Shown here one piece after another: positions 6,808 through 28,144 of a DNA stretch of 29,641 nt; the first letter of the stretch is position 1; every line of letters begins with the position of its first letter. The position numbers were made by a program, and so were the translations under genes. The stretch is taken from positions 1-29,641 of the IMG/VR virus record IMGVR_UViG_3300031518_000007; one strand, 5' to 3'. The notes below the pieces were generated by a model. It was not told the DNA's origin. It saw only the letters and a program-made list of their open reading frames with translations, and did no database searches. This DNA is from a virus.

Positions 6808-7569
6808 ATGTTTAATCTAAAACTTTCGTCAGAAACAACAAAAATTCTTTCTGCTTTGGCAAATATTAATCAATATGTTTGTCTAAAGAAGAATGTTCCA
6901 TATATCACACTTTTTAATGATAATTATACAATAAAAGCCAAAGCAAACATCACGGAGACTCCACCAGAAACAATTGCTTTTTCTTTGCAAAAGTTTCTGG
7001 GAATGATTCAACTGATGAGCAAAGAGCCTGAATACGTCAATATTTCCTATGACGATAAACAGATTCGGTTTTCTGTACCGAATTCTGAAACATCTCTAAA
7101 GACAGAGACAATGTTAGTTCCGATCAACCATTTTAATATCAAATTTTTTGAAGATGTTGATTTTAAATGTACTACTGAAAATAAGGTGTTTTCTCTTAAT
7201 TTTACAAATGAAATGTTAAAGAAAATCAAGCAAGCATCAAACGTTCTTAATATGGGAACGCTTTTGTTTAATTTTACAAATTCTTCTTCTCCAACTCTTG
7301 TTTTGTCTGATGCAACATTTACTGATAACAAGACCAGTGATGAATTTACAATTTTTCTTGAAGAAGTTTCACAAAACATGGAAGAACTTGTTGCATTAAA
7401 TGTAGTTAATTTGACAAAAATTGTTAGCGGAGACTATCAAGTAAGTTGCTATTATGTAGGAACTTATAGAAAAGGAGATCCTGCAAACAAATTTCTGATG
7501 CATTTTGTTCCTGAAGCAGCAACAACACCAAAAATTGAGTATTATATGTCAACAATTTTCAAGAAATAG
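6808..7569 (+). CDS. 45: Sliding clamp, T4 gp45 type
   Basis: Trimeric ring that tethers the polymerase to DNA. The 253-residue protein has the gp45 opening (LKLSSETTKILSALANINQ against T4 LSKDTTALLKNFATINS) and a similar block around LQKFLGMIQLMSKEPEYVNISYDD, which matches LNGFLGILSLVNDDAEI. It ends with the extended-strand pattern of clamp domain 2. It is about 25 residues longer than T4 gp45 (228). It begins the clamp-loader operon in T4 gene order and follows its own promoter; the GAGGG ribosome binding site lies 5 nt from the ATG. The next gene starts 11 nt after the stop. Confidence 0.93.
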   Translation: MFNLKLSSETTKILSALANINQYVCLKKNVPYITLFNDNYTIKAKANITETPPETIAFSLQKFLGMIQLMSKEPEYVNISYDDKQIRFSVPNSETSLKTETMLVPINHFNIKFFEDVDFKCTTENKVFSLNFTNEMLKKIKQASNVLNMGTLLFNFTNSSSPTLVLSDATFTDNKTSDEFTIFLEEVSQNMEELVALNVVNLTKIVSGDYQVSCYYVGTYRKGDPANKFLMHFVPEAATTPKIEYYMSTIFKK

Positions 7570-8902: not shown

Positions 8903-9487
8903 ATGGAAAAGACAACTACAATGAAGCAAACACAGACACAACCAATGACTGAAAACTTCAGGGATGAATTGATCAAGAACTTTATTGAAGTAAAGATTGA
9001 TCCTTCGAAGTTTCTGATTATTACAGAAACATTGACAAGAATTGGAATTTATTCCAGAAAGAACAGGACGCTGTATCAGACTTGCCATCTTCTGCACAAG
9101 AAGGGCAAGTATTACATTGTTCATTTTAAGGAATTGTTTATGCTGGATAACAAGCTACGAAGGCCGATGACAAGGACAGATTATCGCAGGAGAAATTATA
9201 TTGCAAAACTGCTTGAATCATGGGGTCTGGTTGAAATTGTGAACAGAGATCTTGTTGAAGAGAGCGGAAGAAATTTGAAGATTAGTGTAATTCCATATTC
9301 GAAGAAGGGGGTTATTCATACTGAACCGAAGTATATTATGTTGAGTGTAAAGAATCAAAATGCTCAGGATGATGAAGACGAATATTATGATGATGAAGAC
9401 GAATATTATGATGATGAAGACGAATATTATGATGATGAGGAATATTATGATGAAGATGATGAGGAAAATTATAAAAAGGAGAATTAG
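8903..9487 (+). CDS. regA: RegA-type translational repressor with an acidic repeat tail
   Basis: RNA-binding protein that in T4 represses translation of early and replication mRNAs. Residues about 32-145 match T4 RegA: ITETLTRIGIYSRKNRTLYQ and the adjoining CHLLHKKGKYYIVHFKE against VKETLTRMGI...LYQSCHILQKKGLYYIVHFKE, and YIAKLLESWGLVEIV against SIAWLLEDWGLIEIV. The 194-residue protein has an N-terminal extension of about 27 residues and a C-terminal tail of about 40 residues built from DDEDEYY repeats; T4 RegA has 122 residues and no such tail. The ribosome binding site is AAGGAGTGTA before ATG. It starts 1 nt after gene 62. Confidence 0.94.
   Translation: MEKTTTMKQTQTQPMTENFRDELIKNFIEVKIDPSKFLIITETLTRIGIYSRKNRTLYQTCHLLHKKGKYYIVHFKELFMLDNKLRRPMTRTDYRRRNYIAKLLESWGLVEIVNRDLVEESGRNLKISVIPYSKKGVIHTEPKYIMLSVKNQNAQDDEDEYYDDEDEYYDDEDEYYDDEEYYDEDDEENYKKEN
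9368..9430 (+). repeat. Three perfect 21-bp tandem repeats in the regA tail
   Basis: Three identical in-frame copies of a 21-bp unit (9368-9388, 9389-9409, 9410-9430) each encode DDEDEYY. A degenerate 18-bp copy follows at 9431-9448. Such arrays can change copy number by slippage without breaking the frame. Confidence 0.95.
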
Positions 9488-10618: not shown

Positions 10619-11036
10619 GGGTAAACCTTTTACTTCTGATATGATTGGAAATTATTATGGGTTTGTATATTGTATTACAAATTTGAAAACCGGAAAACGA
10701 TATATAGGAAGAAAATATTTTTACAAAACTGTAAAAAAAGGAAAAAGGAGAATAAAAGTTGAGTCTGATTGGAAAGATTATTGGTCGTCTTCTGAGTTGG
10801 TTAAAAAAGATGTTGATCTTCTTGGAAAAGATTCTTTCAAGCGCGAAATCATATCCCTTCATGTAACAAAGGGTGATACAAATTATTTTGAAAATTATAT
10901 GTTATTTAAAATGGGAGTTTTGGAAGAGCCTGAAGATAACAGAACATTTTATAATGACAATATAATGAACAGATATTATTATAAATCTATGAAAAATGTT
11001 GGAAAGAAAAGAAAAATTTCTTCAACTTTTTGTTAA
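10533..11036 (+). CDS. GIY-YIG-like nuclease-fold protein
   Basis: A 167-residue protein with GFVYCITN (residues 43-50) and RYIGR (56-60), the two halves of a GIY-YIG-type signature in the diverged form seen in T4-like phages (GFVYxITN...GKxYIGRK). VESDWKDYWSSS and FKREIISLH follow as in those proteins, with glutamates downstream (E120 region) as candidate metal ligands. The start is TTG 10533, with GGAG 7 nt upstream; no ATG is suitable, because the conserved part already begins near residue 25 (NPWLFEGKPF). It overlaps the preceding gene by 86 nt. It could be a Seg-like homing endonuclease or a domesticated relative. Confidence 0.82.
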   Translation: MKRKSTPRKKQKTNVSSQILEYQNPWLFEGKPFTSDMIGNYYGFVYCITNLKTGKRYIGRKYFYKTVKKGKRRIKVESDWKDYWSSSELVKKDVDLLGKDSFKREIISLHVTKGDTNYFENYMLFKMGVLEEPEDNRTFYNDNIMNRYYYKSMKNVGKKRKISSTFC

Positions 11037-11042
11037 TAAATA
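11035..11042 (+). promoter_or_regulatory. Late-like promoter box AATAAATA
   Basis: AATAAATA differs from the T4 late promoter box TATAAATA at one base. It lies 6 nt before the ATG of the tail-protein gene, which has no Shine-Dalgarno. A structural gene is where a late promoter is expected. Confidence 0.55.
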
Positions 11043-11048
11043 ATTTAT

Positions 11049-11582
11049 ATGAGCACCGCACAATCAAATCTTGTTGTTCCAAAAGGATTGACTTCGCTTG
11101 ATAATTCAAATGCAAGTCTTTTCAGGCTTACTTTTACCCGGTTTCCTAATGTAGAATATAATGTTTTTCAAGTTGTTTTGCCAAATATTACTTTTGGTGA
11201 AACTTTGCTTCCAAATCCTGTAAAAGATTTACCTGTTCCCGGTGATAAGATAACATTTGACCCTGTAGTAGTTTCATTTTTGGTGCAAGAAGATTTTGAA
11301 AATTATTTTGAACTTGCAAGATGGATGTATGGACTTGGATATCCTATTACAACAGAACAGCGAAGAAAACTTGAAAGTAAAAATGAGCGTTATAGTGATG
11401 CTATTTTACACATTCTTACAAATAAAAGAAATTCAATGTTTACAATTCGTTTTGTTAGTTGTTTTCCTATTTCGTTGTCTTCATTAACATTGGATGCTTC
11501 TGTTGCTGATGGATCTCCTTTGACAGCAGACGTAATGCTTCAATTCCATTATATGGAAACAGAAAGGATTCCTGTTCCATGA
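11049..11582 (+). CDS. Tail-tube-like structural protein (gp19/gp54 family)
   Basis: Virion protein of the myovirus tail-tube family. The 177 residues show the family pattern: an N-terminal strand FRLTFTRFPNVEYNVFQVVLP, then DLPVPGDKITFDPVVVSFLV, EDFENYFELARWMYGLGYP, a YSDAILHILTN strand, and FVSCFPISLSSLTLD near the end. This layout (PGDK, F.V.ED..NY.E...W) is shared with tail proteins of T4-like cyanophages. It has no Shine-Dalgarno, and a late-like box lies 6 nt upstream. Its stop overlaps the next small gene as ATGA. I cannot tell the main tube protein from a tube-initiator paralogue. Confidence 0.85.
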   Translation: MSTAQSNLVVPKGLTSLDNSNASLFRLTFTRFPNVEYNVFQVVLPNITFGETLLPNPVKDLPVPGDKITFDPVVVSFLVQEDFENYFELARWMYGLGYPITTEQRRKLESKNERYSDAILHILTNKRNSMFTIRFVSCFPISLSSLTLDASVADGSPLTADVMLQFHYMETERIPVP

Positions 11583-11734
11583 AAAAGTTTTCTTTTAAAA
11601 TTAAAGACAAATATAAGCCAAGAGTGAAAACTATTATAAACAGATCATCCGGGCCAATTATTCCAAAAACAAAAAGAAAAGAGAAATATAATAAATCCGG
11701 GAAAGGAGAATGGTATGATGACGAAGAAGTTTAG
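11579..11734 (+). CDS. 51-residue basic protein
   Basis: A short gene coupled to the tail-protein gene by an ATGA overlap and overlapping the following gene by 20 nt. The product is very basic at the N-terminus (MKKFSFKIKDKYKPRVK) and ends acidic and aromatic (GEWYDDEEV). The tight packing between two good genes, with no other explanation for this stretch, supports its reality. Function unknown; a small virion or assembly protein is possible given the upstream neighbour. Confidence 0.7.
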   Translation: MKKFSFKIKDKYKPRVKTIINRSSGPIIPKTKRKEKYNKSGKGEWYDDEEV

Positions 11735-11906
11735 AGGAAATGATCTTGAAGTGTTACTGGATGAATTGGAAAAAAAATTTCCAGAACTAAAAAAGGAACT
11801 TAAACAAATGATCATTCGACAAAAGCAACGGTATTCTGTTAATACATTGACTGAAGAGTATGAATTGATTTTTTCTTTAAGTATCAAGAAACAGAGGAAG
11901 AGATAA
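11715..11906 (+). CDS. Small helical protein, 63 residues
   Basis: Begins with ATGATG after a good AAGGAG site. It is a charged helix (LEVLLDELEKKFPELKKELK) with a basic C-terminus (KKQRKR), likely a coiled coil or small adaptor. It ends 13 nt before thyX. No family is recognised. Confidence 0.75.
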   Translation: MMTKKFRGNDLEVLLDELEKKFPELKKELKQMIIRQKQRYSVNTLTEEYELIFSLSIKKQRKR

Positions 11907-11919
11907 AGGAGATTATAAA

Positions 11920-12879
11920 ATGATTGACGCAAAAATTCTTGCACACACAAAAAACAGTTATACTGGTGATGAGCTTGTTACTTTTCAATGTACATATCAC
12001 AGATTTATTTTACCAGAAGTCAACACATACAGGATGTTATCAAAAAACTCTGGATCTTCCAGAGCCATTCCTGTAAAGACTCGTATTGAGAGTATTTTGA
12101 CAGATCCTGCCGGTCCTGTTGAATGGGGAGAAAATTGTAAAGGAATGGTTGCACAAAATCTTCTTGATGGAGAAAAAACAGAACAAGCAAAGATTATCTG
12201 GATGGAAGCGTGTCAATATGCAATTGAATGTGCAAAAAAATTATCAGAACTTGGTGTTCACAAGCAGATTGTGAACCGTCTTCTGGAACCTTTTTCTTGG
12301 CAAACATCTGTAATTACCGGAAACAGGGAATGGTTTGAGCATATGTTTGCTCAAAGAATCCATAAGGATGCTCAACCGGAATTTCGTGAACTTTGCAAGA
12401 AAATGAAAGAAGTTTTGGACAATTCAGTGCCAAAATTAGATGTCCCGCATCAACCATATATAACAGATAAAGAGGTTGAAAATGAACAAGGACTTTATTA
12501 CCTCTTGGCAAGATATTCTGTCGCCAGATGTGCACGGGTATCATACACGCCGTTTGACTCCAATAGACCAGACTGGGAAAAAGACATGGCTTTATACTAT
12601 AGGCTTTTGTATTCTGATCCTCCTCATATGTCTCCTTTTGAGCATTATGCCTTCCCCTACAAACATAATACTAATGCGGAAGATATTGGGCAAAAAGGAG
12701 AAGTACAAAGAGGAGACGTAAAAGAAAAGAAATTTAATAATTTAAAAGGATTTGTTAATTTAAGATATATTATTGAACACACACAATGTGAAGATCCAGA
12801 CCAAGAAATTGAAGATATTGATGAAAATCTTGAAAATGGTTTTGTAACTGAAAAGTTGTTGGAGAGGTTAAAGCCATGA
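11920..12879 (+). CDS. thyX: Flavin-dependent thymidylate synthase ThyX, permuted phage form
   Basis: Makes dTMP from dUMP using methylenetetrahydrofolate and reduced FAD. The 319-residue protein carries R-x-x-S-x-N-x-x-S-x-R (R38 MLSKNSGSSR48), the core of the ThyX motif RHRxxSxNxxSxR with the leading RH replaced by TY. LGVHKQIVNRLLEPF and AQPEF follow, matching the C-terminal half of canonical ThyX. ARCARVSY (residues 203-209) and SPFEH (238-242), which come first in canonical ThyX, come last here. The same order is known from a group of long phage ThyX proteins. The ribosome binding site is AAAGGAGA. The stop overlaps the next start as ATGA. It pairs functionally with the reductase at 14333. 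Confidence 0.9.
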   Translation: MIDAKILAHTKNSYTGDELVTFQCTYHRFILPEVNTYRMLSKNSGSSRAIPVKTRIESILTDPAGPVEWGENCKGMVAQNLLDGEKTEQAKIIWMEACQYAIECAKKLSELGVHKQIVNRLLEPFSWQTSVITGNREWFEHMFAQRIHKDAQPEFRELCKKMKEVLDNSVPKLDVPHQPYITDKEVENEQGLYYLLARYSVARCARVSYTPFDSNRPDWEKDMALYYRLLYSDPPHMSPFEHYAFPYKHNTNAEDIGQKGEVQRGDVKEKKFNNLKGFVNLRYIIEHTQCEDPDQEIEDIDENLENGFVTEKLLERLKP

Positions 12880-13289
12880 TATATGTTCATAAAGATATGT
12901 TAATTATAGGCCCTCAAACCAAAAACATAATTACTTTATCAGGATTGACAGAGGGGTCTGAAATTATTGATGGGTCAGTAAAGATAAAAGTTAATAGTAT
13001 TTTAAAGTGTAATCAATGCTATCGGGCATTTTTTTGTACAAAGAATAATATGTTTTATACTTTTATTCTTCATAAAAATAATATTATTCATTTTCAATAT
13101 GATACATTACCAAAAACTAATGTTGATACACTTTATAAGAAATGGCAATCTGGAGTTATGTTTCCAATTATAAAGAATGGTCTTATGTTGAGAAATCTAG
13201 AAAAAATTACTTCAGATGAAATTTTTTTCAAAATAGAAGCAGAAGAATATTCTTCTGTTCTTGTAAATAATATTCTCCTCCTTTCTTAG
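12876..13289 (+). CDS. Unknown 137-residue protein
   Basis: Translationally coupled to thyX by an ATGA overlap, with GGAGAGG upstream. The product looks like a beta-rich soluble protein (alternating hydrophobic strands such as KNIITLSGL and FYTFILHKNNIIHF). The pair CNQCYRAFFC at residues 45-54 holds three cysteines but is not a full zinc site. It ends in a hydrophobic LLLS. I recognise no family. It closes the operon, as a new promoter follows. Confidence 0.75.
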   Translation: MIYVHKDMLIIGPQTKNIITLSGLTEGSEIIDGSVKIKVNSILKCNQCYRAFFCTKNNMFYTFILHKNNIIHFQYDTLPKTNVDTLYKKWQSGVMFPIIKNGLMLRNLEKITSDEIFFKIEAEEYSSVLVNNILLLS

Positions 13290-13301
13290 TTTCATTTATC
13301 C

Positions 13302-13330
13302 TTGACAATGGTTTTGTAGTTTGATATCCT
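13302..13330 (+). promoter_or_regulatory. Sigma70-like promoter
   Basis: TTGACA (13302-13307), 17 bp, TATCCT (13325-13330). The predicted +1 near 13337 gives a leader of about 29 nt that includes the AAAAAGGAGA site of the gene at 13366. Confidence 0.75.
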
Positions 13331-13365
13331 GTATGTGAATATTGTCAATAAAAAGGAGAATTATT

Positions 13366-14250
13366 ATGGAAAGAACAATGATGTTCAAATATCCAAACTT
13401 GATTTGGGAAAAAACTGAAAGTCTTGATATAAAGAAGCATATTATTTTTAATATAGAAAATATTTGTTTTGTTCAGTTTTATTGTCCAGCAAGTTCTCAA
13501 GAGTCAGCAATAATTTCAACAAATTCAGAAAAAATTATTTTGTCTGGAAGAAATAATTATAATGATAAAACGAGCAAGTGGCTTAAAAATTTGTTTTTGA
13601 ATAATAAAGCAACGGACATTATTGATATTCTTGATGGAGAAAAGGCTTTTTATGGATGGTTTGAAGGGTGGGATCATTTAGGTTATATTATGTTACCATT
13701 AAAATATAATAATTCAGGTTCAGATAAAGTATCTGCGTCATGCTTTTTTCTCAGACATATCAATGCTGTAAGATATATTAAATGTGATAATGGATATAAA
13801 ATTATTATTTATTATCCTAACAGTACTATTACATTTCAGTTTGCATCATCTGAAGATTCTTGTTACAAAAATATTTCAAAAATTCTTGCAAAATATCACA
13901 TATCAAAACATAATTCATTTTATGAATCTACAAAAAATATTTATAGTCATATTAAATATTTTGATGCTAATCGAAATTGGATTCGTCTGATTGGAGATAA
14001 TTCTTATGGTGATGATACTGTAATGTTGGACATTAATGTTACTCAAATTTCACAAATTGACTTTGGTTCAGAGACTTATTTTCATTATTACAAGAGAGAA
14101 AATAATCCTGATAAACACAATCATACTCGCAAAATGGCAGAAATTTATATTGCAAAAAATATAATTAAGATTAAAGGTAAACCTGCCGAATGTCTTGAGA
14201 AATTTTTCAAAAACAAATATAAAACCCATTTCTATGGAGATGAAAATTAA
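13366..14250 (+). CDS. Unknown 294-residue protein
   Basis: The start is ATG 13366, which has AAGGAGA 7 nt upstream; an in-frame TTG at 13342 would precede the ribosome binding site and is rejected. The protein is soluble, rich in Asn, Ile, Lys and Tyr, with no signal peptide. GEKAFYGWFEGWDHLGYIMLPL near residues 82-103 is aromatic-rich, and several strand-like stretches (YKIIIYYPNSTITFQF) suggest a beta-rich fold. No motif is recognised. It has its own sigma70 promoter. Confidence 0.8.
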   Translation: MERTMMFKYPNLIWEKTESLDIKKHIIFNIENICFVQFYCPASSQESAIISTNSEKIILSGRNNYNDKTSKWLKNLFLNNKATDIIDILDGEKAFYGWFEGWDHLGYIMLPLKYNNSGSDKVSASCFFLRHINAVRYIKCDNGYKIIIYYPNSTITFQFASSEDSCYKNISKILAKYHISKHNSFYESTKNIYSHIKYFDANRNWIRLIGDNSYGDDTVMLDINVTQISQIDFGSETYFHYYKRENNPDKHNHTRKMAEIYIAKNIIKIKGKPAECLEKFFKNKYKTHFYGDEN

Positions 14251-14280
14251 GGAGATATTTTCATCCTTATTATAGTCATA

Positions 14281-14312
14281 TTGACTAAATAACGTGGTGA
14301 TCAGTATATAAT
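14281..14312 (+). promoter_or_regulatory. Probable sigma70 promoter for the ribonucleotide reductase gene
   Basis: TTGACT at 14281-14286 is followed by TATATA at 14305 (18 bp spacer) or TATAAT at 14307-14312 (20 bp spacer). The predicted +1 near 14317-14319 leaves a leader of about 14-16 nt carrying GAGGAGG. Confidence 0.55.
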
Positions 14313-14332
14313 TCAATTCTAGAGGAGGAAAA

Positions 14333-16342
14333 ATGCCTTCAATTATTCAGCAAGACCGATCTTCTTTTGTCTCATCGAGTGAAAATTCAGATAAAATTAA
14401 TAATATCAATAATATAGTTGAACCTTTTGAAAAGTTTTCTGAAGAATTTATAGAAAAATACAAAAATAAAACCCCGGATTGGGGGTTTAATGGTCTTGGA
14501 TATATTGTTTACAAGAGAACATATGCAAGACGAAAAGAAAATGGAGAAACTGAAGAATGGCATGAAACGCTCAGACGATGTATTGAGGGAGCACAAAGAA
14601 TTGGAGCAAATTATACCAAAGAAGAAGCAGAGCGTCTTTTTGATTATATGTTTAATTTGAAGGGACTATATGCTGGCAGAATGTTGTGGCAATTGGGAAC
14701 CCCGATGGTTGACAGGTTTAAAGCTGATAGTTGTTTGAATTGTTGGTTTGTTTCTATGAAAAGTATTGACGCATTTTGTTTTTTGTTTGAAAAGCTGATG
14801 CTTGGTGGTGGAGTAGGGTTCAGTATCAGAAGGGAGCATATTTATCAATTACCAAAAATAAAGAAGGGTGTTGATATTCGTCATGAATTATCGAAAGACG
14901 CAGACTTTATTGTTCCAGATTCTCGTGAAGGTTGGATTAAACTGTTATATAATGTTTTAAATTCATATTTTAATACAGGAGAATCTTTTACATATTCAAC
15001 AATTCTGGTTCGCGGAGCCGGGGAACCAATCAAATCATTTGGCGGTACAGCTTCCGGCCCAAAGATTCTTATTGAAGGTATTCAGAAAATTTGTGAGATT
15101 CTGAAAAGGAGAGAAAATAAAAAGCTTCGTTCTATTGATGTTTTGGACATTTGCAACGTAATCGGGAGTATTGTTGTTGCTGGTAATGTCAGAAGGAGTG
15201 CAGAAATTGCTCTTGGTGATGCAGATGATTATTTGTTTTTGAGGGCAAAAAGATGGGATTTGGGAAACATTCCAAATTGGCGAGCAATGAGTAACAACAC
15301 AATTTATGTTGATGATTTTTCCTATATTAATGATTCTGTTTGGGAAGGATATCAAGGAAATGGAGAACCATATGGATTTTTTAATCTTCCACTATCTCAA
15401 AAATATGGCCGTCTTGGTGAGGCTGTGGAAGATAACTGTGAAGGCTTGAATCCTTGCGGGGAGATTACGCTGGCTGATTATGAATGTTGCAATTTGTCAG
15501 AAATTTTCTTGAACAGAATTTCCAGTAAGGAAGAATTTCTTGATCTTGCGAAACTTTTGTATAAGACCCAGAAAGCCATTGCTGCAATGAATTATTTGAC
15601 CAAACAGACAAATGAAATTGTACGTAAGAATATGAGATTGGGGCTGAGTGTTTCTGGTATTTGCCAGTCCAAAGAAAAGTTGGAGTGGCTTGATTTTGTG
15701 TATAGAGAACTGAAAAAGTTTGACAAAGAATGGTCTCGTTTGCGTGGCTGGAACAAATCTATCAAGCTGACCACAGTAAAACCAAGCGGAACGCTTTCAA
15801 TTTTGGCCGGAGCATCGCCCGGTGTTCATCCCGGATATGCAAAGTATTTCATTCGCCGTGTAAGAATGTCCAGCAATGATCCTTTGGTTGAGTGGTGTAA
15901 GAAAATGGGATATAAGACTGAATATCAAATTAATTTTGATGGAACTTTAAATTATGATACAAGCGTGGTAGAATTTCCTTGTGAATATGCTTCTGGCACC
16001 ATTCTTTCCAAAGATATGTCTGCTGTTGAACAACTGGAATTGGTGAAATTTATGCAAAAAAATTGGGCTGATAATGCTGTATCAGTTACAGTTTATTACA
16101 GAAAAGAAGAATTACCAGAAATTAAAGAATGGTTAAAGAAAAATTATGATAATTCAGTTAAATCAGTATCATTCTTGCTTCATTCCGATCATGGATTTGT
16201 TCAGGCACCGTATGAAGAGATTGATGAACAGACTTATCGGAAAATGTTGAAGAAAATAGGAAAACTTGAAAAGATTGAAAATATAGGGGATGATGATCTA
16301 GAGTCTATGGAGTGTTCTTCAGGAGTTTGTCCAATAAAGTGA
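14333..16342 (+). CDS. nrdJ: Adenosylcobalamin-dependent (class II) ribonucleoside-triphosphate reductase
   Basis: Reduces NTPs to dNTPs with a thiyl radical formed from coenzyme B12, needing neither oxygen nor a separate small subunit. The 669-residue protein is of the monomeric Lactobacillus RTPR type (about 740 residues). Key residues are C134/C137 in CLNCWF (one being the substrate-reducing cysteine), the thiyl cysteine C375 and E377 in NPCGE, C386 eleven residues later as the disulphide partner, and the C-terminal redox pair C661 and C666 in CSSGVCPIK. VVAGNVRRSAEIALGD and KPSGTLSILAGASPGVHP are typical reductase segments. A strong GAGGAGG site precedes the ATG. T4 uses an oxygen-dependent NrdAB instead, so this phage relies on host or environmental B12. 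Confidence 0.96.
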   Translation: MPSIIQQDRSSFVSSSENSDKINNINNIVEPFEKFSEEFIEKYKNKTPDWGFNGLGYIVYKRTYARRKENGETEEWHETLRRCIEGAQRIGANYTKEEAERLFDYMFNLKGLYAGRMLWQLGTPMVDRFKADSCLNCWFVSMKSIDAFCFLFEKLMLGGGVGFSIRREHIYQLPKIKKGVDIRHELSKDADFIVPDSREGWIKLLYNVLNSYFNTGESFTYSTILVRGAGEPIKSFGGTASGPKILIEGIQKICEILKRRENKKLRSIDVLDICNVIGSIVVAGNVRRSAEIALGDADDYLFLRAKRWDLGNIPNWRAMSNNTIYVDDFSYINDSVWEGYQGNGEPYGFFNLPLSQKYGRLGEAVEDNCEGLNPCGEITLADYECCNLSEIFLNRISSKEEFLDLAKLLYKTQKAIAAMNYLTKQTNEIVRKNMRLGLSVSGICQSKEKLEWLDFVYRELKKFDKEWSRLRGWNKSIKLTTVKPSGTLSILAGASPGVHPGYAKYFIRRVRMSSNDPLVEWCKKMGYKTEYQINFDGTLNYDTSVVEFPCEYASGTILSKDMSAVEQLELVKFMQKNWADNAVSVTVYYRKEELPEIKEWLKKNYDNSVKSVSFLLHSDHGFVQAPYEEIDEQTYRKMLKKIGKLEKIENIGDDDLESMECSSGVCPIK

Positions 16343-16367
16343 TAAAAAAAATTTAATGAATCTTCTA

Positions 16368-16396
16368 TTGACAATTTGACGTCTATGAGGTATATT
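16368..16396 (+). promoter_or_regulatory. Sigma70 promoter placed directly on a start codon
   Basis: TTGACA (16368-16373), 17 bp, TATATT (16391-16396). The ATG at 16403 starts exactly 6 nt after the -10 box, at the expected +1, so the mRNA should be leaderless. Confidence 0.8.
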
Positions 16397-16402
16397 CAGA
16401 GT

Positions 16403-23088: not shown

Positions 23089-24515
23089 TATCTGTAATTA
23101 AAAAGAACATTACCATTTCTATCATAAGCGGTCAAAACACCATTTTCATAAGTAGCGCTGGCAACATTATACATCTCTGAATAATATCTATAGGCAACAG
23201 AAAATCCGTTGAATGAAGTATCATTATTTTTTCTACCTTCTTCAGCCAAAGTTAATCCTATAGAAAATAGAGCTTCTGTAGAATTTGAGAATGTTTTTTC
23301 ACCTTTAATAACCAAACTATCTGCAACAACAGCTTCATGTATTGGTCTAAGCATTTCCGGGAACATTACTCTATCTTCCCATTCTCTTATTCTTCTCCAA
23401 TTTTCAGGGCCAATTTCTCTTTCAATTACAGCTTTAAATTGTCGATTAACCATTTTAACACCATCGTGATCATCTCCCATATACATTCTATAATAAAAGA
23501 AGGCATACATTGATAAATATTGGAATATACTATAATATATTTCTGTAGGTAAATTTCTTGGCCGGGCCAGAAATTCAGGAATTCTTACCCTGTCAGGAAG
23601 AGAATCTGTTTTGACCAATTGAACAAAATCTCTGGCGTATTGAATCATAACTTTTTTCATTCCAGTTTCAAACATTGTCATTAAAACTTCTTTTGCTGCC
23701 GGAAATTTTTTATCATTATTAATATCTGGAACATCATCAACAACATCACGATAATCAATTGGAAAAGGCCCGGCAGTAAGAACCATATAGTAACTGTGTG
23801 GAACAGCAACATATTTAAATTGTCTTCCTTCTTCATCTTTTAAATCTTCAAAGACAGCATAGAAAAAGTGTTTATTGCCCATATCATGATACCATTCTGT
23901 CGTGTTATATTTTTCTCCACCTAAACACCATTTAGTACCTTTACCGATGATACAATTATCTTTTTGATCTGTTGTATGATAAAAGGTTATTGGATGTCCA
24001 TCAATAGTTTTTTGAAGATAAGCCTTGCTTCTAAATTCTTTCTTTATATCTTCAATAGCTTTTTTTCCTTTTTGACGCTCTTCAAATTTTTTTACAACAT
24101 TTTCCAAAACGTTTTCAATAATATCAAGATCACCTTCTCCCAAAATATCAAGACCAATGAAATCTTCCATAATGTCAGTGTCTTTATATTTTGATAAAGC
24201 TTCAGAAAATTGCTCCCCATACTTTTTCAAAAGGTCAATAAATTTGTCATAATCTTCCGGCAAATTTGTAAGATTTTTGAACCAATTGAAAAAATATGTA
24301 GCACCGTTCTTTTTTATAGTTGGATCAAAAGTCATCAGGTATTCAACATATTCTTTATCTGTTCCAGAGAACAAATTGGCTTGTCTTAATTTTTCTACAT
24401 TTGCAGAAAACTTCTTTCCAAATTGGCCACTTTTCAGAAGACCTTGGATGGAGACTGCTTCTGCTAAAGGCGTATTCAAATTAATTAGAAAAAGATTAGA
24501 ATGTTTATTTGTCAT
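23085..24515 (-). CDS. Unknown minus-strand protein with a GTKWC motif
   Basis: 476 residues and the only good gene on this strand. GKGTKWCLGG (residues 191-200), then aromatic WYHDMGNKHFFYAVFEDL and RQFKYVAV, resemble a segment found in various phage proteins of unknown role, in which GxGTxWCT is followed by a beta strand, a Lys/Asp turn and a Tyr-rich strand. The N-terminal 160 residues are helical and charged; the C-terminus ends in a strand NGNVLFNYRY. No Shine-Dalgarno precedes the ATG; an AATAAATA box lies 7 nt upstream. A virion or late protein would fit that box. Function unknown. Confidence 0.88.
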   Translation of the reverse strand: MTNKHSNLFLINLNTPLAEAVSIQGLLKSGQFGKKFSANVEKLRQANLFSGTDKEYVEYLMTFDPTIKKNGATYFFNWFKNLTNLPEDYDKFIDLLKKYGEQFSEALSKYKDTDIMEDFIGLDILGEGDLDIIENVLENVVKKFEERQKGKKAIEDIKKEFRSKAYLQKTIDGHPITFYHTTDQKDNCIIGKGTKWCLGGEKYNTTEWYHDMGNKHFFYAVFEDLKDEEGRQFKYVAVPHSYYMVLTAGPFPIDYRDVVDDVPDINNDKKFPAAKEVLMTMFETGMKKVMIQYARDFVQLVKTDSLPDRVRIPEFLARPRNLPTEIYYSIFQYLSMYAFFYYRMYMGDDHDGVKMVNRQFKAVIEREIGPENWRRIREWEDRVMFPEMLRPIHEAVVADSLVIKGEKTFSNSTEALFSIGLTLAEEGRKNNDTSFNGFSVAYRYYSEMYNVASATYENGVLTAYDRNGNVLFNYRY

Positions 24516-24522
24516 ATGTAAC

Positions 24523-24530
24523 TATTTATT
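24523..24530 (-). promoter_or_regulatory. Late-like promoter box AATAAATA, minus strand
   Basis: Reads AATAAATA on the minus strand, 7 nt before the ATG of the minus-strand gene. It shares a 44-bp divergent region with the promoter of the gene at 24560. Confidence 0.5.
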
Positions 24531-24544
24531 CTAGAAAGATTTTG

Positions 24545-24553
24545 TGGTATAAT
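24545..24553 (+). promoter_or_regulatory. Extended -10 promoter placed directly on a start codon
   Basis: TGGTATAAT is a full extended -10 element. The -35 (TTTATT 17 bp upstream) is poor. The ATG at 24560 starts 6 nt after the -10 box, at the expected +1. Confidence 0.75.
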
Positions 24554-24559
24554 ATAGCT

Positions 24560-25243
24560 ATGAACGACTTTTTCAAAAACGCCAAAGATTTTTCTTTAAA
24601 TTTGAAGAAAATTGATACACCTTCCGGTAGATTTTATATTTGCGGAAAGAAAATGTATCCAAGTATTACAACCATTCTCTCGCTGAATAATAAAACGGCG
24701 ATTGAAAAATGGAAAAACAATATTGGGGAAGCTGAAGCCAAACGAATACAAGACAGGGCAACAAATACGGGGACAGAAGTTCATACTTTAATGTATGAAG
24801 CTATTATGAACCGTAATTATGATGAATTTATGAAAAAATACCCAAAAATTTTCAAGGCGGTTTTTCCTTGGATTGAAAAAATGGAACCATTCAAAATGGA
24901 AACTCCGCTTTATTCTGATTATCTTGGGGTTGCCGGAACTCCTGACTTTATTGGTACATATAATGATATTCCGTATATTGTTGATTTTAAAACAGAAACA
25001 AAAGAAAAAGATATTATTTACATTGAAAATTACTTTCTTCAATTAAATGCATATTCTGTGATGGTTTATGAGTGTTACGGACTTGAAATTAAATCTTTGA
25101 AGATTCTGATGATGAATGTAAGCCGTTTACAACAGGGGCATGTGCATGAATTTGATTTTAAAACAAGTTCAAAACAAATAGTAAAAATACATAAATTGGC
25201 TCAAGAATTTATGGAACAATTTGTACATAAAGTTGAACAATAA
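24560..25243 (+). CDS. PD-(D/E)XK exonuclease, RecB/Cas4-like
   Basis: The start is ATG 24560 (227 residues); an in-frame ATG at 24509 lies upstream of the promoter. The nuclease motifs appear in order: GTEVH with H75, a METPLYS strand with E114, GVAGTPDF with D129, and IVDFKTE with D142 and K144, followed by YFLQLNAYSVM as in RecB-like and Cas4-like exonucleases. It probably processes DNA ends for phage recombination or host DNA breakdown. The fold call is good; the substrate is not readable. A T4 46/47 pair is not in the window. Predicted leaderless. Confidence 0.92.
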   Translation: MNDFFKNAKDFSLNLKKIDTPSGRFYICGKKMYPSITTILSLNNKTAIEKWKNNIGEAEAKRIQDRATNTGTEVHTLMYEAIMNRNYDEFMKKYPKIFKAVFPWIEKMEPFKMETPLYSDYLGVAGTPDFIGTYNDIPYIVDFKTETKEKDIIYIENYFLQLNAYSVMVYECYGLEIKSLKILMMNVSRLQQGHVHEFDFKTSSKQIVKIHKLAQEFMEQFVHKVEQ

Positions 25244-25246
25244 ATA
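25239..25246 (+). promoter_or_regulatory. Late-like promoter box AATAAATA
   Basis: It overlaps the stop codon of the nuclease gene and lies 5 nt before the ATG of the zinc-ribbon gene. A weak GAGG is adjacent, so a ribosome binding site may overlap it. Confidence 0.45.
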
Positions 25247-25251
25247 GAGGC

Positions 25252-25515
25252 ATGAAAAGATATTTGGACTTTCAGTGTAAATCCTGTAGTCATCAAGTTG
25301 ATGACTGCTTTACTCCAGAAAATATTCTTCCATGTCCTGTATGTGGAGGAGAAATGGTAATTGTTTGGAAACGTGCCCCCCGATTCGGTGATCCGGTCAC
25401 GCTTGGAATAACAAAACCTCCCTCAGACTTCCAAAAATATGTTCTTGGCAAGATTAAAAGTAAATATAAAAATAGCACTCTTGAAAAGACACATGCAATT
25501 CCAAAAGAAGTCTGA
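25252..25515 (+). CDS. Zinc-ribbon protein, FmdB-like
   Basis: 87 residues with CKSC (C9, C12) and CPVC (C28, C31), a classic four-cysteine zinc ribbon of the FmdB type, followed by a GGEMVIVWKRAP strand and a basic tail. Such small proteins are common in phage genomes, often as nucleic-acid-binding or structural-assembly factors. The next gene starts 13 nt downstream. Confidence 0.85.
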   Translation: MKRYLDFQCKSCSHQVDDCFTPENILPCPVCGGEMVIVWKRAPRFGDPVTLGITKPPSDFQKYVLGKIKSKYKNSTLEKTHAIPKEV

Positions 25516-25528
25516 GTTGAGGTAATTA

Positions 25529-26251
25529 ATGTCCAGAACAAAGAAAAAGTCAAACAACGGCAACAATAATCATCTAGTTTCATTTGGTCTTGAACTTGCA
25601 AATATACAACCATTAACTGAAAATCAAAAAATTGTTTTTGAGAATTTTGAACAAAATTATCATCAAGTTTTGATTGGTGTAGCAGGAACAGGAAAGTCTT
25701 TTATTTCCTTATATTTAGCATTTAAATATGCAATGGAACAATGGAATCATTATATTCCTGTAAAAATTTTAATTATCAAGAGTGCTGTGCCCACCAGAGA
25801 TATCGGGTTCCTTCCCGGAACATTAGACGACAAGATCAAATATTATGAAGATGTTTATAAAGTATTGATAAATAAACTATTTCACCGTGATGATGCATTT
25901 TCTATTTTGAGTGATAAAGGTGTTCTTGAATTTACTACCACCTCTTTTCTGAGAGGAACGACTTTTGAAAATTGTGTTGTGATAGCAGATGAAATTCAAA
26001 ATATGTCTTTTCATGAGTTGGATACTATTATTACCAGAGTGGGAAAGGGGTGTAAACTCTTTTTTGTAGGTGATGAAGAACAATGTGATCTTGATCAGAA
26101 AAAAAGTGGATTTACTAAATTTATTAATATTTTGGAAAAAATGAAGTCTTTTTCTATTGTCCGGTTTCAATTAGAAGATATTGTTCGGGACGATGTTGTC
26201 AAAGAATATTTGATTGCTAAATATTTCAATACTTCGAATAAATGTACATAG
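25529..26251 (+). CDS. phoH: PhoH-like ATPase
   Basis: 240 residues. Walker A is GVAGTGKS (50-57), Walker B is VVIADEIQNM (D154, E155), and the PhoH signature VGDEEQCDLD is at 180-189, followed by LEDIVRDDVVKEYL. TRDIGFLPGTLDDKI is the conserved PhoH loop. PhoH proteins are widespread in phages; in bacteria they are associated with RNA handling and phosphate starvation, and the phage role is unsettled. TGAGG precedes the ATG. The stop overlaps the next start by 10 nt. Confidence 0.95.
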   Translation: MSRTKKKSNNGNNNHLVSFGLELANIQPLTENQKIVFENFEQNYHQVLIGVAGTGKSFISLYLAFKYAMEQWNHYIPVKILIIKSAVPTRDIGFLPGTLDDKIKYYEDVYKVLINKLFHRDDAFSILSDKGVLEFTTTSFLRGTTFENCVVIADEIQNMSFHELDTIITRVGKGCKLFFVGDEEQCDLDQKKSGFTKFINILEKMKSFSIVRFQLEDIVRDDVVKEYLIAKYFNTSNKCT

Positions 26252-26598
26252 CGAAGAAAAAGCACATTATTATTGATTATGTATATTATAACCGTAAGAT
26301 TTTCAATGATTTTCTTCCCCACCCAAAAGATCTGAAAATCGGATTTAGACCCCCCTATAAAAATATTATTGCTGAAGTAGAATATAATAAGTCCAAAAAA
26401 ACCATTGGTTTATATTTCAGATACCGTAAATTTAGTTCCCGAAAAGTTTATATTCATGTTCTTATTCATGAAATGGTTCATATTGCAGATCTTTTGGAAC
26501 ATGGTATTTTGACAGGACACGGAAAACACTTTTTCAAACATAAGAAACGGCTTCAACATTTGGGTAATATTCCACTTAATCTTGAATACAAAATTTAA
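26242..26598 (+). CDS. SprT-like small metalloprotease
   Basis: 118 residues with HEMVH (H76, E77, H80) and a downstream GHGKHF offering the third zinc ligand (H93 likely), the SprT-like arrangement. SprT/Spartan proteases act on DNA-protein crosslinks in cells; small phage versions are common but uncharacterised. The N-terminus has a beta-rich region leading to the IHVLIHEMVH helix. It overlaps phoH by 10 nt and lacks a clear Shine-Dalgarno, so coupling is likely. Confidence 0.9.
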   Translation: MYIAKKKHIIIDYVYYNRKIFNDFLPHPKDLKIGFRPPYKNIIAEVEYNKSKKTIGLYFRYRKFSSRKVYIHVLIHEMVHIADLLEHGILTGHGKHFFKHKKRLQHLGNIPLNLEYKI

Positions 26599-26604
26599 TA
26601 AATA
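26597..26604 (+). promoter_or_regulatory. Late-like promoter box AATAAATA
   Basis: It overlaps the stop codon of the SprT-like gene and lies exactly 6 nt before the ATG at 26611, which has no Shine-Dalgarno. Confidence 0.55.
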
Positions 26605-26610
26605 TTTGAT

Positions 26611-27600
26611 ATGAAACTATTAAAAGAAGATTCTGAAGACTTTTTTAAAAAACAAGAACTAAATTTACGAGCTTCAAATATCGGGAAAATTGTACAGGGA
26701 TATAAAATTATCAATGAAGAGACTTTTGATGCATTAATTATGGAATATTATGAAAAAAATATATTTGAATTAAAGGATGAAATTGTATTGATTTATAGAG
26801 GCATTCGTATTTCAGATCCAGAAGCAAATTTTATGTTTTATGATTCAAGTAAATTTTTGTCCCGGTTGCCGGAAGTAGGGGTTCCTCCAATTATTGAATA
26901 TGTTATGTCTTCTGGTATGTCAGGATGGAGCAATTTTCCTCCCCGGCATAAATCACTTGTTTGTTCGTTTTCCAAAGAAGTTGCTTCCAGATTTACTTAT
27001 AGTGAAGACGATTTATATGTTGTAATTCCTTTGGCTAGACAGTATGTTGGTATAGCTCCGGCAGAAGATATTGTACATTCATTTGAAATTGGTTTATCTG
27101 AAGCCGGATTTGATGATGTGAATGAATTTTATGATGTAGTTGTTGAGTTTATGTCAAAAATGTTAAATATGCCAAAATCTGCTATTCATAGAGATTTTTT
27201 TGTTGTATCTTCTTTAACATCTTGGTCTCAAGCTGATTTTCAAACTATAAACAAACATTTTGATGAAATTGATTTCAAATATTTTGGGCCATTTCTTTAT
27301 AGTGAAGATGAATATAATGATGAAAAGTTGAAAAAAATTCCTGATGACAAAATAAAGATAATGGAAGAGTTTCGTGACAAGTATCCTGAATTTTTCAAAA
27401 TTTGTAAAAAATATGGCGGACTGCTTCATGGTATTGATGAAATTTTACGTCCAGAAAAAAATGGTTTTGTTCGATTAAAGTATGAAGATCTCAAGGCACA
27501 TGGTTTTGAAAATGATGATAAAGAATGTTGGCTGGCCGGATTAAGTGTATTGGTAAGATACAAGAAATTCATGAAACTCATTTCCGGTTCTATGGTATAA
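26611..27600 (+). CDS. ADP-ribosyltransferase-like protein (tentative)
   Basis: 329 residues. IYRGIRI (R63), then PPRHKSLVCSFSKEVASRF (residues 110-128) and DLYVVIPLARQYVGIAP with EDI and a following SFE, follow the R...S-T-S-like...E order of R-S-E ADP-ribosyltransferases and resemble a family of T4-like phage proteins with PxRSxSLICST. The catalytic glutamate is not certain. If correct, it could be a virion-injected host modifier like T4 Alt, which agrees with the late-like box upstream. The C-terminal 100 residues are unrelated and helical. The stop TAA is part of the next promoter's -10 box. Confidence 0.75.
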   Translation: MKLLKEDSEDFFKKQELNLRASNIGKIVQGYKIINEETFDALIMEYYEKNIFELKDEIVLIYRGIRISDPEANFMFYDSSKFLSRLPEVGVPPIIEYVMSSGMSGWSNFPPRHKSLVCSFSKEVASRFTYSEDDLYVVIPLARQYVGIAPAEDIVHSFEIGLSEAGFDDVNEFYDVVVEFMSKMLNMPKSAIHRDFFVVSSLTSWSQADFQTINKHFDEIDFKYFGPFLYSEDEYNDEKLKKIPDDKIKIMEEFRDKYPEFFKICKKYGGLLHGIDEILRPEKNGFVRLKYEDLKAHGFENDDKECWLAGLSVLVRYKKFMKLISGSMV

Positions 27601-27601
27601 T
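27593..27601 (+). promoter_or_regulatory. Extended -10 promoter for uvsY, overlapping the upstream stop codon
   Basis: TGGTATAAT contains the upstream gene's stop codon TAA (27598-27600). The uvsY ATG at 27608 starts 6 nt after the -10 box. No good -35 is visible (GAAACT at 17 bp). Confidence 0.75.
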
Positions 27602-27607
27602 GATCTT

Positions 27608-28066
27608 ATGAACAATTCTGAACTGGAACAAAAGCTGGAAACGTATATTAAAAAATTTGAAGATGAAGTAAAGGTAACAAGTTTATCTCATGGATTGGAT
27701 CTTCACAATGAAGCCCTCAAAACTGCTGATTTGTTAGTACAATGGACAAATATATACATAGTTGAAAAGAAAGCTCTTAAGAAGATGTATCAACAACGAG
27801 ATAAATTGTTATTGAAACTGAAACAATATTATTCAGGCAAGGGTTCTCCAGAAGAATATGAAAAAGCTCCACTTAACGACAAAGTGTTAAGAACAGAACT
27901 GGATGTTTGGATACGCGCAAATGATAACTGGATATCGCTTCAAACAGACATAGATTGTCAGGAATCTGTTGTGGAACTGGCAGAACGTGCTTGTGAAGTA
28001 TTGAAAACCCGAGGATTTTTGATTCGGGATGCTTTGCGATATCTAGAGTTTATTAACGGTATGTAA
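27608..28066 (+). CDS. uvsY: UvsY recombination mediator
   Basis: Loads UvsX on single-stranded DNA coated by SSB. The 152 residues (T4: 137) match at LKLKQYYSGKGSPEEYEKAP against LDYYSGRGDGDEFSMDRYEKSE, and at ACEVLKTRGFLIRDALRYLEF against ALDAIKSRGFAIKHIQDMRAF of T4. The rest is helical, as expected for a hexameric UvsY. It is predicted leaderless, starting 6 nt after an extended -10 box. Its partner uvsX lies at 2091. Confidence 0.94.
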   Translation: MNNSELEQKLETYIKKFEDEVKVTSLSHGLDLHNEALKTADLLVQWTNIYIVEKKALKKMYQQRDKLLLKLKQYYSGKGSPEEYEKAPLNDKVLRTELDVWIRANDNWISLQTDIDCQESVVELAERACEVLKTRGFLIRDALRYLEFINGM

Positions 28067-28094: not shown

Positions 28095-28123
28095 TTGACT
28101 ATGTGGTTCAAAAGTGATATAGT
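28095..28123 (+). promoter_or_regulatory. Sigma70 promoter
   Basis: TTGACT (28095-28100), 17 bp, TATAGT (28118-28123). The predicted +1 is 28130, so the mRNA begins GUGAGG, as predicted for the clamp mRNA. Confidence 0.85.
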
Positions 28124-28144
28124 GGAAGTGTGAGGACACAGACA

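Follow-up and report, generated by a model that had tools for sequence, protein, structure and literature searches.

How close to a start codon can a late promoter of a T4-like phage lie? T4 provides the textbook case of late transcription, with mRNAs regarded as leadered and led by a Shine-Dalgarno (SD) sequence. The question is raised by virus record IMGVR_UViG_3300031518_000007, a fragment of a T4-like phage analyzed here over its full 29,641 bases (the window), in which the octamer AATAAATA stands 5-7 nucleotides (nt) ahead of four start codons. These data suggest that NATAAATA at this distance is likely the -10-like box of gp55-type late promoters, from which transcription would begin either on the first letter (A) of the ATG or no more than 1-2 nt away. 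The leaderless late-promoter class proposed in an earlier note on this DNA is well supported in silico, as a variant of the T4-type late promoter, by the position of the box, the virion genes of sister contigs, a survey of gp25 genes and the cultured Pelagibacter phage HTVC008M; late timing is read only from the identity of the genes.

The boxes reported in the earlier note were confirmed, with gaps of 6 nt (start at 11049), 7 nt (24515, minus strand), 5 nt (25252) and 6 nt (26611; Table 1). Its remark that most such genes lack an SD holds for these four; gene 25252 is preceded by a GAGG, which was not counted as an ordinary SD because it ends only 1 nt before the ATG. Upstream of the four boxes, matches to a -35 hexamer (TTGACA, spacers of 15-19 nt) reach only 2-3 of 6 positions, the background share with at least 4 matches being 0.37, and no RNA structure is predicted around the four starts (z 0.46 to 1.37). 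The open reading frame (ORF) preceding 11049, of 167 amino acids (aa), is overlapping and ends 12 nt away. A structural protein and a candidate injected protein had been counted among the box-led genes: the first stands, as the gp3-like product of 11049, while the ART-like identity of 26611 is unsupported, this protein having no Pfam match, a match only to an uncharacterized PHROG (phrog_12810) and a best PDB E-value of 0.16. Relatives of the four genes belonged to the same genome (contigs G001 and G002), were absent, or were too distant. A further box, CATAAATA, is present ahead of 21626 as reported, but its gap of 16 nt and the good SD in between, AAAGGAGA, led us to reject this gene as a fifth member of the class.

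Within the window, 4 of 36 starts have AATAAATA in their -20 to -1 interval, whereas per-leader dinucleotide shuffles average 0.15 and none of 2000 reaches 4; the remaining three copies (5888, 6261 and, on the minus strand, 13806) are not ahead of gene starts. The heptamer ATAAATA lies 4-9 nt ahead of 4 of 34 window genes, compared with a mean of 0.6 for 20 other permutations of the same composition, the best of which (AATAAAT) also precedes 4 window genes, overlapping the same sites. Taken alone, the window renders the late-promoter claim only suggestive. Comparison with other phages makes it fairly likely for the four window sites and strongly favors it for the class.

The window is a fragment and holds no capsid genes; sister contigs were therefore used to check both the occurrence of the motif ahead of virion genes and the presence of a gp55-like sigma factor. 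Contig G004 was found by a scan with the protein encoded at 28130 (78% identity), and G005 by a scan with the gp6 of G004 (97%). In G004, the box precedes the genes for a phrog_350 tail protein (8 nt), gp25 (6 nt), a 1804-aa DUF4815 protein (7 nt), whose homolog in cyanophage S-RIM2 is annotated as structural, and a phrog_9942 tail-fiber protein (6 nt); the same four genes are box-led in G005, with gaps of 9, 6, 7 and 6 nt. At gene 13834 of G004 (2365 in G005), CTCACATAAATA..GTGAGTAATG is kept while the DNA further upstream differs. A 410-aa gene of G005 begins AATAAATA-N6-ATG, and the upstream AATAAATAGTTA..T ATG is similar to that of 24515 in the window. A gp55 gene is found in G005 (phrog_234, 2e-45; preceded by TATAAT-N8-ATG), a gp55 homolog also occurs in contig G003, and HTVC008M has one by annotation; three fragments, namely the window, G002 and G004, have none, and the gp55 expected by the earlier note was found in relatives and not in the window itself. 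No family named gp33 appeared among the PHROG scans of window proteins, and no search aimed at it was made. Two side observations concern these contigs. The box before the phrog_350 tail gene (13834) on L108 lies within the inverted repeat CTCACAT-AAAT-ATGTGAG, the G005 copy having one more loop base and different upstream DNA; and the match of the G003 gp55 homolog (31291-31815, minus strand) spans 161 positions, including one in-frame TGA.

To extend the comparison, contigs were surveyed in two sets, with starts taken as the first in-frame ATG of mechanically called ORFs, so that single cases may be wrong. The first set comprised 94 loci, almost all of them replication regions (1.13 Mb), 93 fetched by DNA polymerase or ribonucleotide reductase (RNR) plus G003, and none of them had ATAAATA 1-11 nt before a first ATG; in G003, TATAAATA mostly lies 20-36 nt ahead of gene starts. 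Structural regions were sought because of this null result, and a fetch by gp6 alignment supplied the second set, the best 80 of at least 597 contigs, the 80 being T4-like structural contigs. Here 136 box-to-ATG gaps measure 0-45 nt, with 65 at 4-6 nt, and ATAAATA, carried by 74 of 639 genes, is the top 7-mer at 3-9 nt, whereas the control ATAATAA occurs once at 4-9 nt and 20 other permutations average 4.65 at that distance. The box-led genes form three main clusters, with 49, 11 and 9 members, corresponding to gp25, baseplate wedge gp8 (phrog_438, three members scanned) and DNA end protector gp2 (phrog_429, one member scanned). The gp25 cluster served to find 75 gp25 homologs, 72 of which have at least 40 nt of upstream sequence; among these, the box lies at 3-9 nt in 49, elsewhere in 9, and is missing from 14, several of the box-less genes carrying, by eye, CTAAATA, which differs by one base, in a comparable position. 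An SD was detected in none of 74 genes with a leaderless box compared with 26 of 47 with a leadered box, a close box leaving little room for one.

The cultured phage HTVC008M gives the same picture with annotated starts. Among its 198 annotated genes, nine carry NATAAATA exactly 5 nt before the ATG, including those for the tape measure, gp2, the tail tube cap, gp25 and the baseplate wedge initiator; three more have gaps of 7-8 nt, and no further box is met until 18 nt. Under a loose rule, an SD precedes 7 of 8 leadered genes versus 2 of 12 close-box genes. The annotation lists a late sigma factor (gp55) and a putative late promoter transcription factor. HTVC008M thus resembles the window in placing NATAAATA right before the ATG of virion genes, but its relation to the window is distant, and leadered, SD-bearing late genes coexist in it with leaderless ones. 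Taken together, the sister contigs (four genes at 6-9 nt), the related contigs (49 of 72 gp25 genes) and HTVC008M (nine genes at 5 nt) bear out the expectation that the motif is found ahead of virion genes.

The geometry of the T4 late promoter offers a rationale for this distance. As described in PMC2988020, the T4 late box is an 8-bp element one helical turn before +1, with its first base at -13, and A occupies this first position at nine of fifty T4 late sites. Because the box is numbered from -13, a gap of 5 nt would put +1 on the A of the ATG, and gaps of 6-7 nt would leave a leader of 1-2 nt. The motif's proposed kinship with the T4 late box is upheld: it fits the 8-bp T4-type form TATAAATA with a variable first base, which is T, A, G or C in the sister contigs and HTVC008M, the window form being AATAAATA. 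In the T4 sequence examined (40 kb), 12 boxes fall within 60 nt of a gene start; every one of them lies 14-35 nt upstream, and two are AATAAATA itself. The window sites resemble T4 late promoters in the octamer, including its A(-13) variant, in the lack of a -35, in the gp45-like clamp encoded in the window and in the gp55 of a sister contig, but differ in that the boxes lie at 5-7 rather than 14-35 nt, which would leave no leader and no SD. In T4, gp45 activates late transcription.

Among cyanomyoviruses, NATAAATA is known as a late promoter in S-PM2 and Syn9, according to PMC2984593, with the same degenerate first base and in the same gp55-bearing group of phages; in contrast to the window, the named cyanophages inspected have gp25 boxes 17-25 nt upstream or none (S-PM2 by eye). 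P-HM2 has the box at 5 nt in 1 of 53 genes, the gp25 gene of Mosig has it at 8 nt, and that of Melnitz-1 has a box followed by an SD. Bacterial leaderless genes, for which PMC3160421 names a TA-like signal approximately 12 bp before the start as the mark, are alike in lacking an SD and in placing a -10-like box some 12 nt ahead of the start codon, but there it is a host-sigma Pribnow box (TANNNT) and here a phage late box. Phage transcripts are called "often leaderless" in passing in PMC5312081. We found no report of leaderless T4-type late genes in the open-access literature, as far as its texts were accessible; subscription journals lay mostly outside the search. The close-box arrangement is a trait of part of the T4-like phages, in which it is mixed with leadered promoters, and is not general.

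Several observations weigh against the late-promoter reading. Across the whole window, AATAAATA is no more frequent than expected (7 copies, mean of 6.2 in shuffles), and some 8-mer reaches at least 4 starts in 54 of 1000 shuffles, making the positional result borderline when all 8-mers are considered. Three of the four window boxes overlap the TAA stop of an upstream ORF, and gp3 is the only one of the four box-led genes known to code for a virion protein. The window itself has no gp55, and its link to G004 consists of one gene at 78% and one small ORF at 53%, with G005 linked through G004 only; moreover, the four boxes common to G004 and G005 are not independent, because the genes concerned are approximately 96% alike. 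To these are added the empty replication-region set and the gp25 genes of other phages. The gp25 box lies 24 nt upstream in S-RIM32, 17 nt in ACG-2014g, 25 nt in ACG-2014c and 21 nt in P-TIM68, and none was found in S-RIM44, ACG-2014d, ACG-2014f or S-RIM2, nor in the Stenotrophomonas, Salmonella (enteric), Vibrio, Aeromonas and RB49-like phages examined.

The alternative that survives best is that the boxes are leaderless promoters read by a host sigma factor and not by gp55, which we consider unlikely. It draws on a second type of box, resembling sigma70 promoters, that also lies close to start codons: TGGTATAAT-N6-ATG at 24560 and 27608, and TTGACT-N17-TATAGT-N6-GTG at 28130, where -35, -10, 6-nt gap and GTG recur in G004 with a different spacer sequence. 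TATAAT with one mismatch occurs at exactly 6 nt before 4 of 42 starts versus 1.0 expected (P 0.02), but this window test is weak: when gaps of 5-7 nt are allowed, P is 0.36 with one mismatch (not significant) and 0.027 for exact TATAAT. For sigma70, a 6-nt gap places +1 at the initial base of the start codon. However, each of the five sigma70-like boxes (window, three; G004 and G005, one each) comes with a -35 of at least 5 of 6 matches, an extended -10, or both. At the nine NATAAATA sites tested, by comparison, the -35 never exceeds 4 of 6 matches and agreement with TATAAT is poor; NATAAATA also precedes virion genes in relatives that carry gp55. Beside the gp55-type late promoters, the phage probably makes use of leaderless host-sigma70 promoters (TATAAT-N6-ATG), and one leaderless geometry seems common to two promoter types. 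As a side observation, the 44-nt divergent region 24516-24559 holds two outward-facing -10-like boxes, each 6-7 nt from a start codon, and an SD fits neither side.

For genes within operons, the most serious rival is re-initiation, in which the box would be a translational element of polycistronic mRNA, an unstructured A/U-rich stretch with overlapping stops, and no promoter at all. The lack of predicted RNA structure around the four window starts is in keeping with this, as is the upstream stop found between the box and the ATG in 34 of 86 box-led genes (the 80 loci together with the window, G004 and G005). Yet up to 16 of the 86, among them 24515, have no same-strand upstream ORF of at least 50 aa ending within 40 nt; the divergent gap in which the box of 24515 lies has no upstream gene to supply ribosomes; and in T4 and HTVC008M the same octamer stands 14-49 nt before genes that mostly bear an SD, which fits a promoter and not a re-initiation signal. 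We therefore regard re-initiation as very improbable overall. Chance, by which an AT-rich genome with TAA stops and A/T-rich starts would occasionally yield AATAAATA, has in its favor the unremarkable overall count, the overlapping stops and the 8-mer shuffles noted above, but is equally improbable given that, in each data set analyzed, permutations of the same composition are much less frequent at this position and that the box is kept before the sister virion genes, before most of the gp25 genes surveyed and at exactly 5 nt in HTVC008M.

Returning to the late-promoter reading, gp55-bearing RNA polymerase would recognize NATAAATA and start at the start codon, giving late mRNAs essentially without leader or SD on whose 5'-terminal AUG ribosomes would initiate; the box-led genes would accordingly be late genes. 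On sequence comparison, it is fairly probable that promoter and translation start have merged in some of the late genes of one branch of the T4-like phages, which takes in the window lineage, most of the gp25-bearing contigs recovered and at least one cultured pelagiphage. In this branch, gp55-bearing polymerase would start on the A of the AUG, and virion proteins such as gp25, gp8, gp2 and gp3 would be expressed from leaderless mRNA beside SD-led late genes of the same genome.

The genes of the window include those for gp43 polymerase, UvsX, a gp41-like helicase, an exonuclease, the gp45 clamp and the gp44 and gp62 loaders, together with RegA, the gp3-like tail completion protein (11049), thymidylate synthase, RNR, PhoH and UvsY. 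Contig G002 overlaps part of this region and adds approximately 4.9 kb upstream, in which no virion genes were recognized when the ORFs were inspected by eye, and two scans for a host among genome contigs returned no relative. The RegA homolog (8903-9487) ends in acidic DDEDEYY-like tandem repeats at its C-terminus. Two tandem pairs of paralogs of unknown function occur, at 17198-18433 and 18436-19599 (29% identity) and at 22254-22676 and 22690-23088 (66%). At 21499-21584, next to a tRNA-Arg(tct) at 21266, ARAGORN lists a tRNA-like gene whose anticodon entry, unusually, has two bases. A short W-C-containing motif is common, by eye, to the large proteins encoded at 23085-24515 on the minus strand (once) and at G005 L112:864-4349 (twice), both of unknown function.

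Table 1. Boxes and associated genes in the window, in order of position.
Feature	Position	Strand	Remarks
gp45-like sliding clamp	6808..7569	+	phrog_223, 5.6e-16
AATAAATA late-type box	11035..11042	+	6 nt upstream of gp3-like tail completion gene; no -35 (best 2/6 matches)
gp3-like tail completion / tail tube family protein	11049..11582	+	phrog_45, 9e-33; no SD
CATAAATA	21602..21609	+	16 nt upstream of 21626; SD in between; outside the leaderless class
476-aa protein of unknown function, box-led	23085..24515	-	no family, no phage match
AATAAATA box	24523..24530	-	7 nt upstream of minus-strand start 24515; within 44-nt divergent intergenic region
Extended -10 TGGTATAAT (TATAAT coordinates)	24548..24553	+	6 nt upstream of exonuclease ATG at 24560; candidate leaderless promoter of sigma70 type
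AATAAATA box	25239..25246	+	5 nt upstream of 25252; includes TAA stop of preceding ORF
87-aa protein, weak zinc-ribbon similarity	25252..25515	+	below Pfam cut-offs
AATAAATA box	26597..26604	+	6 nt upstream of 26611; overlaps TAA stop of preceding ORF
329-aa protein of unknown function	26611..27600	+	phrog_12810
Extended -10 TGGTATAAT (TATAAT coordinates)	27596..27601	+	6 nt upstream of UvsY ATG at 27608; candidate leaderless promoter of sigma70 type
TATAGT, with TTGACT 17 nt upstream	28118..28123	+	6 nt before GTG 28130; conserved at G004 7808

A leaderless class of this kind would be of practical use, aiding the calling of late promoters and the correction of starts in T4-like genomes from metagenomes. 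In pelagimyophages, prediction of late promoters by the method used for cyanophages was unsuccessful, as stated in PMC7029224, and the leaderless class may explain this failure. More broadly, a class fixed in its position would link the choice of promoter with the mode of translation, and, if true, late expression in these phages would hinge on both replication-coupled transcription and leaderless initiation.

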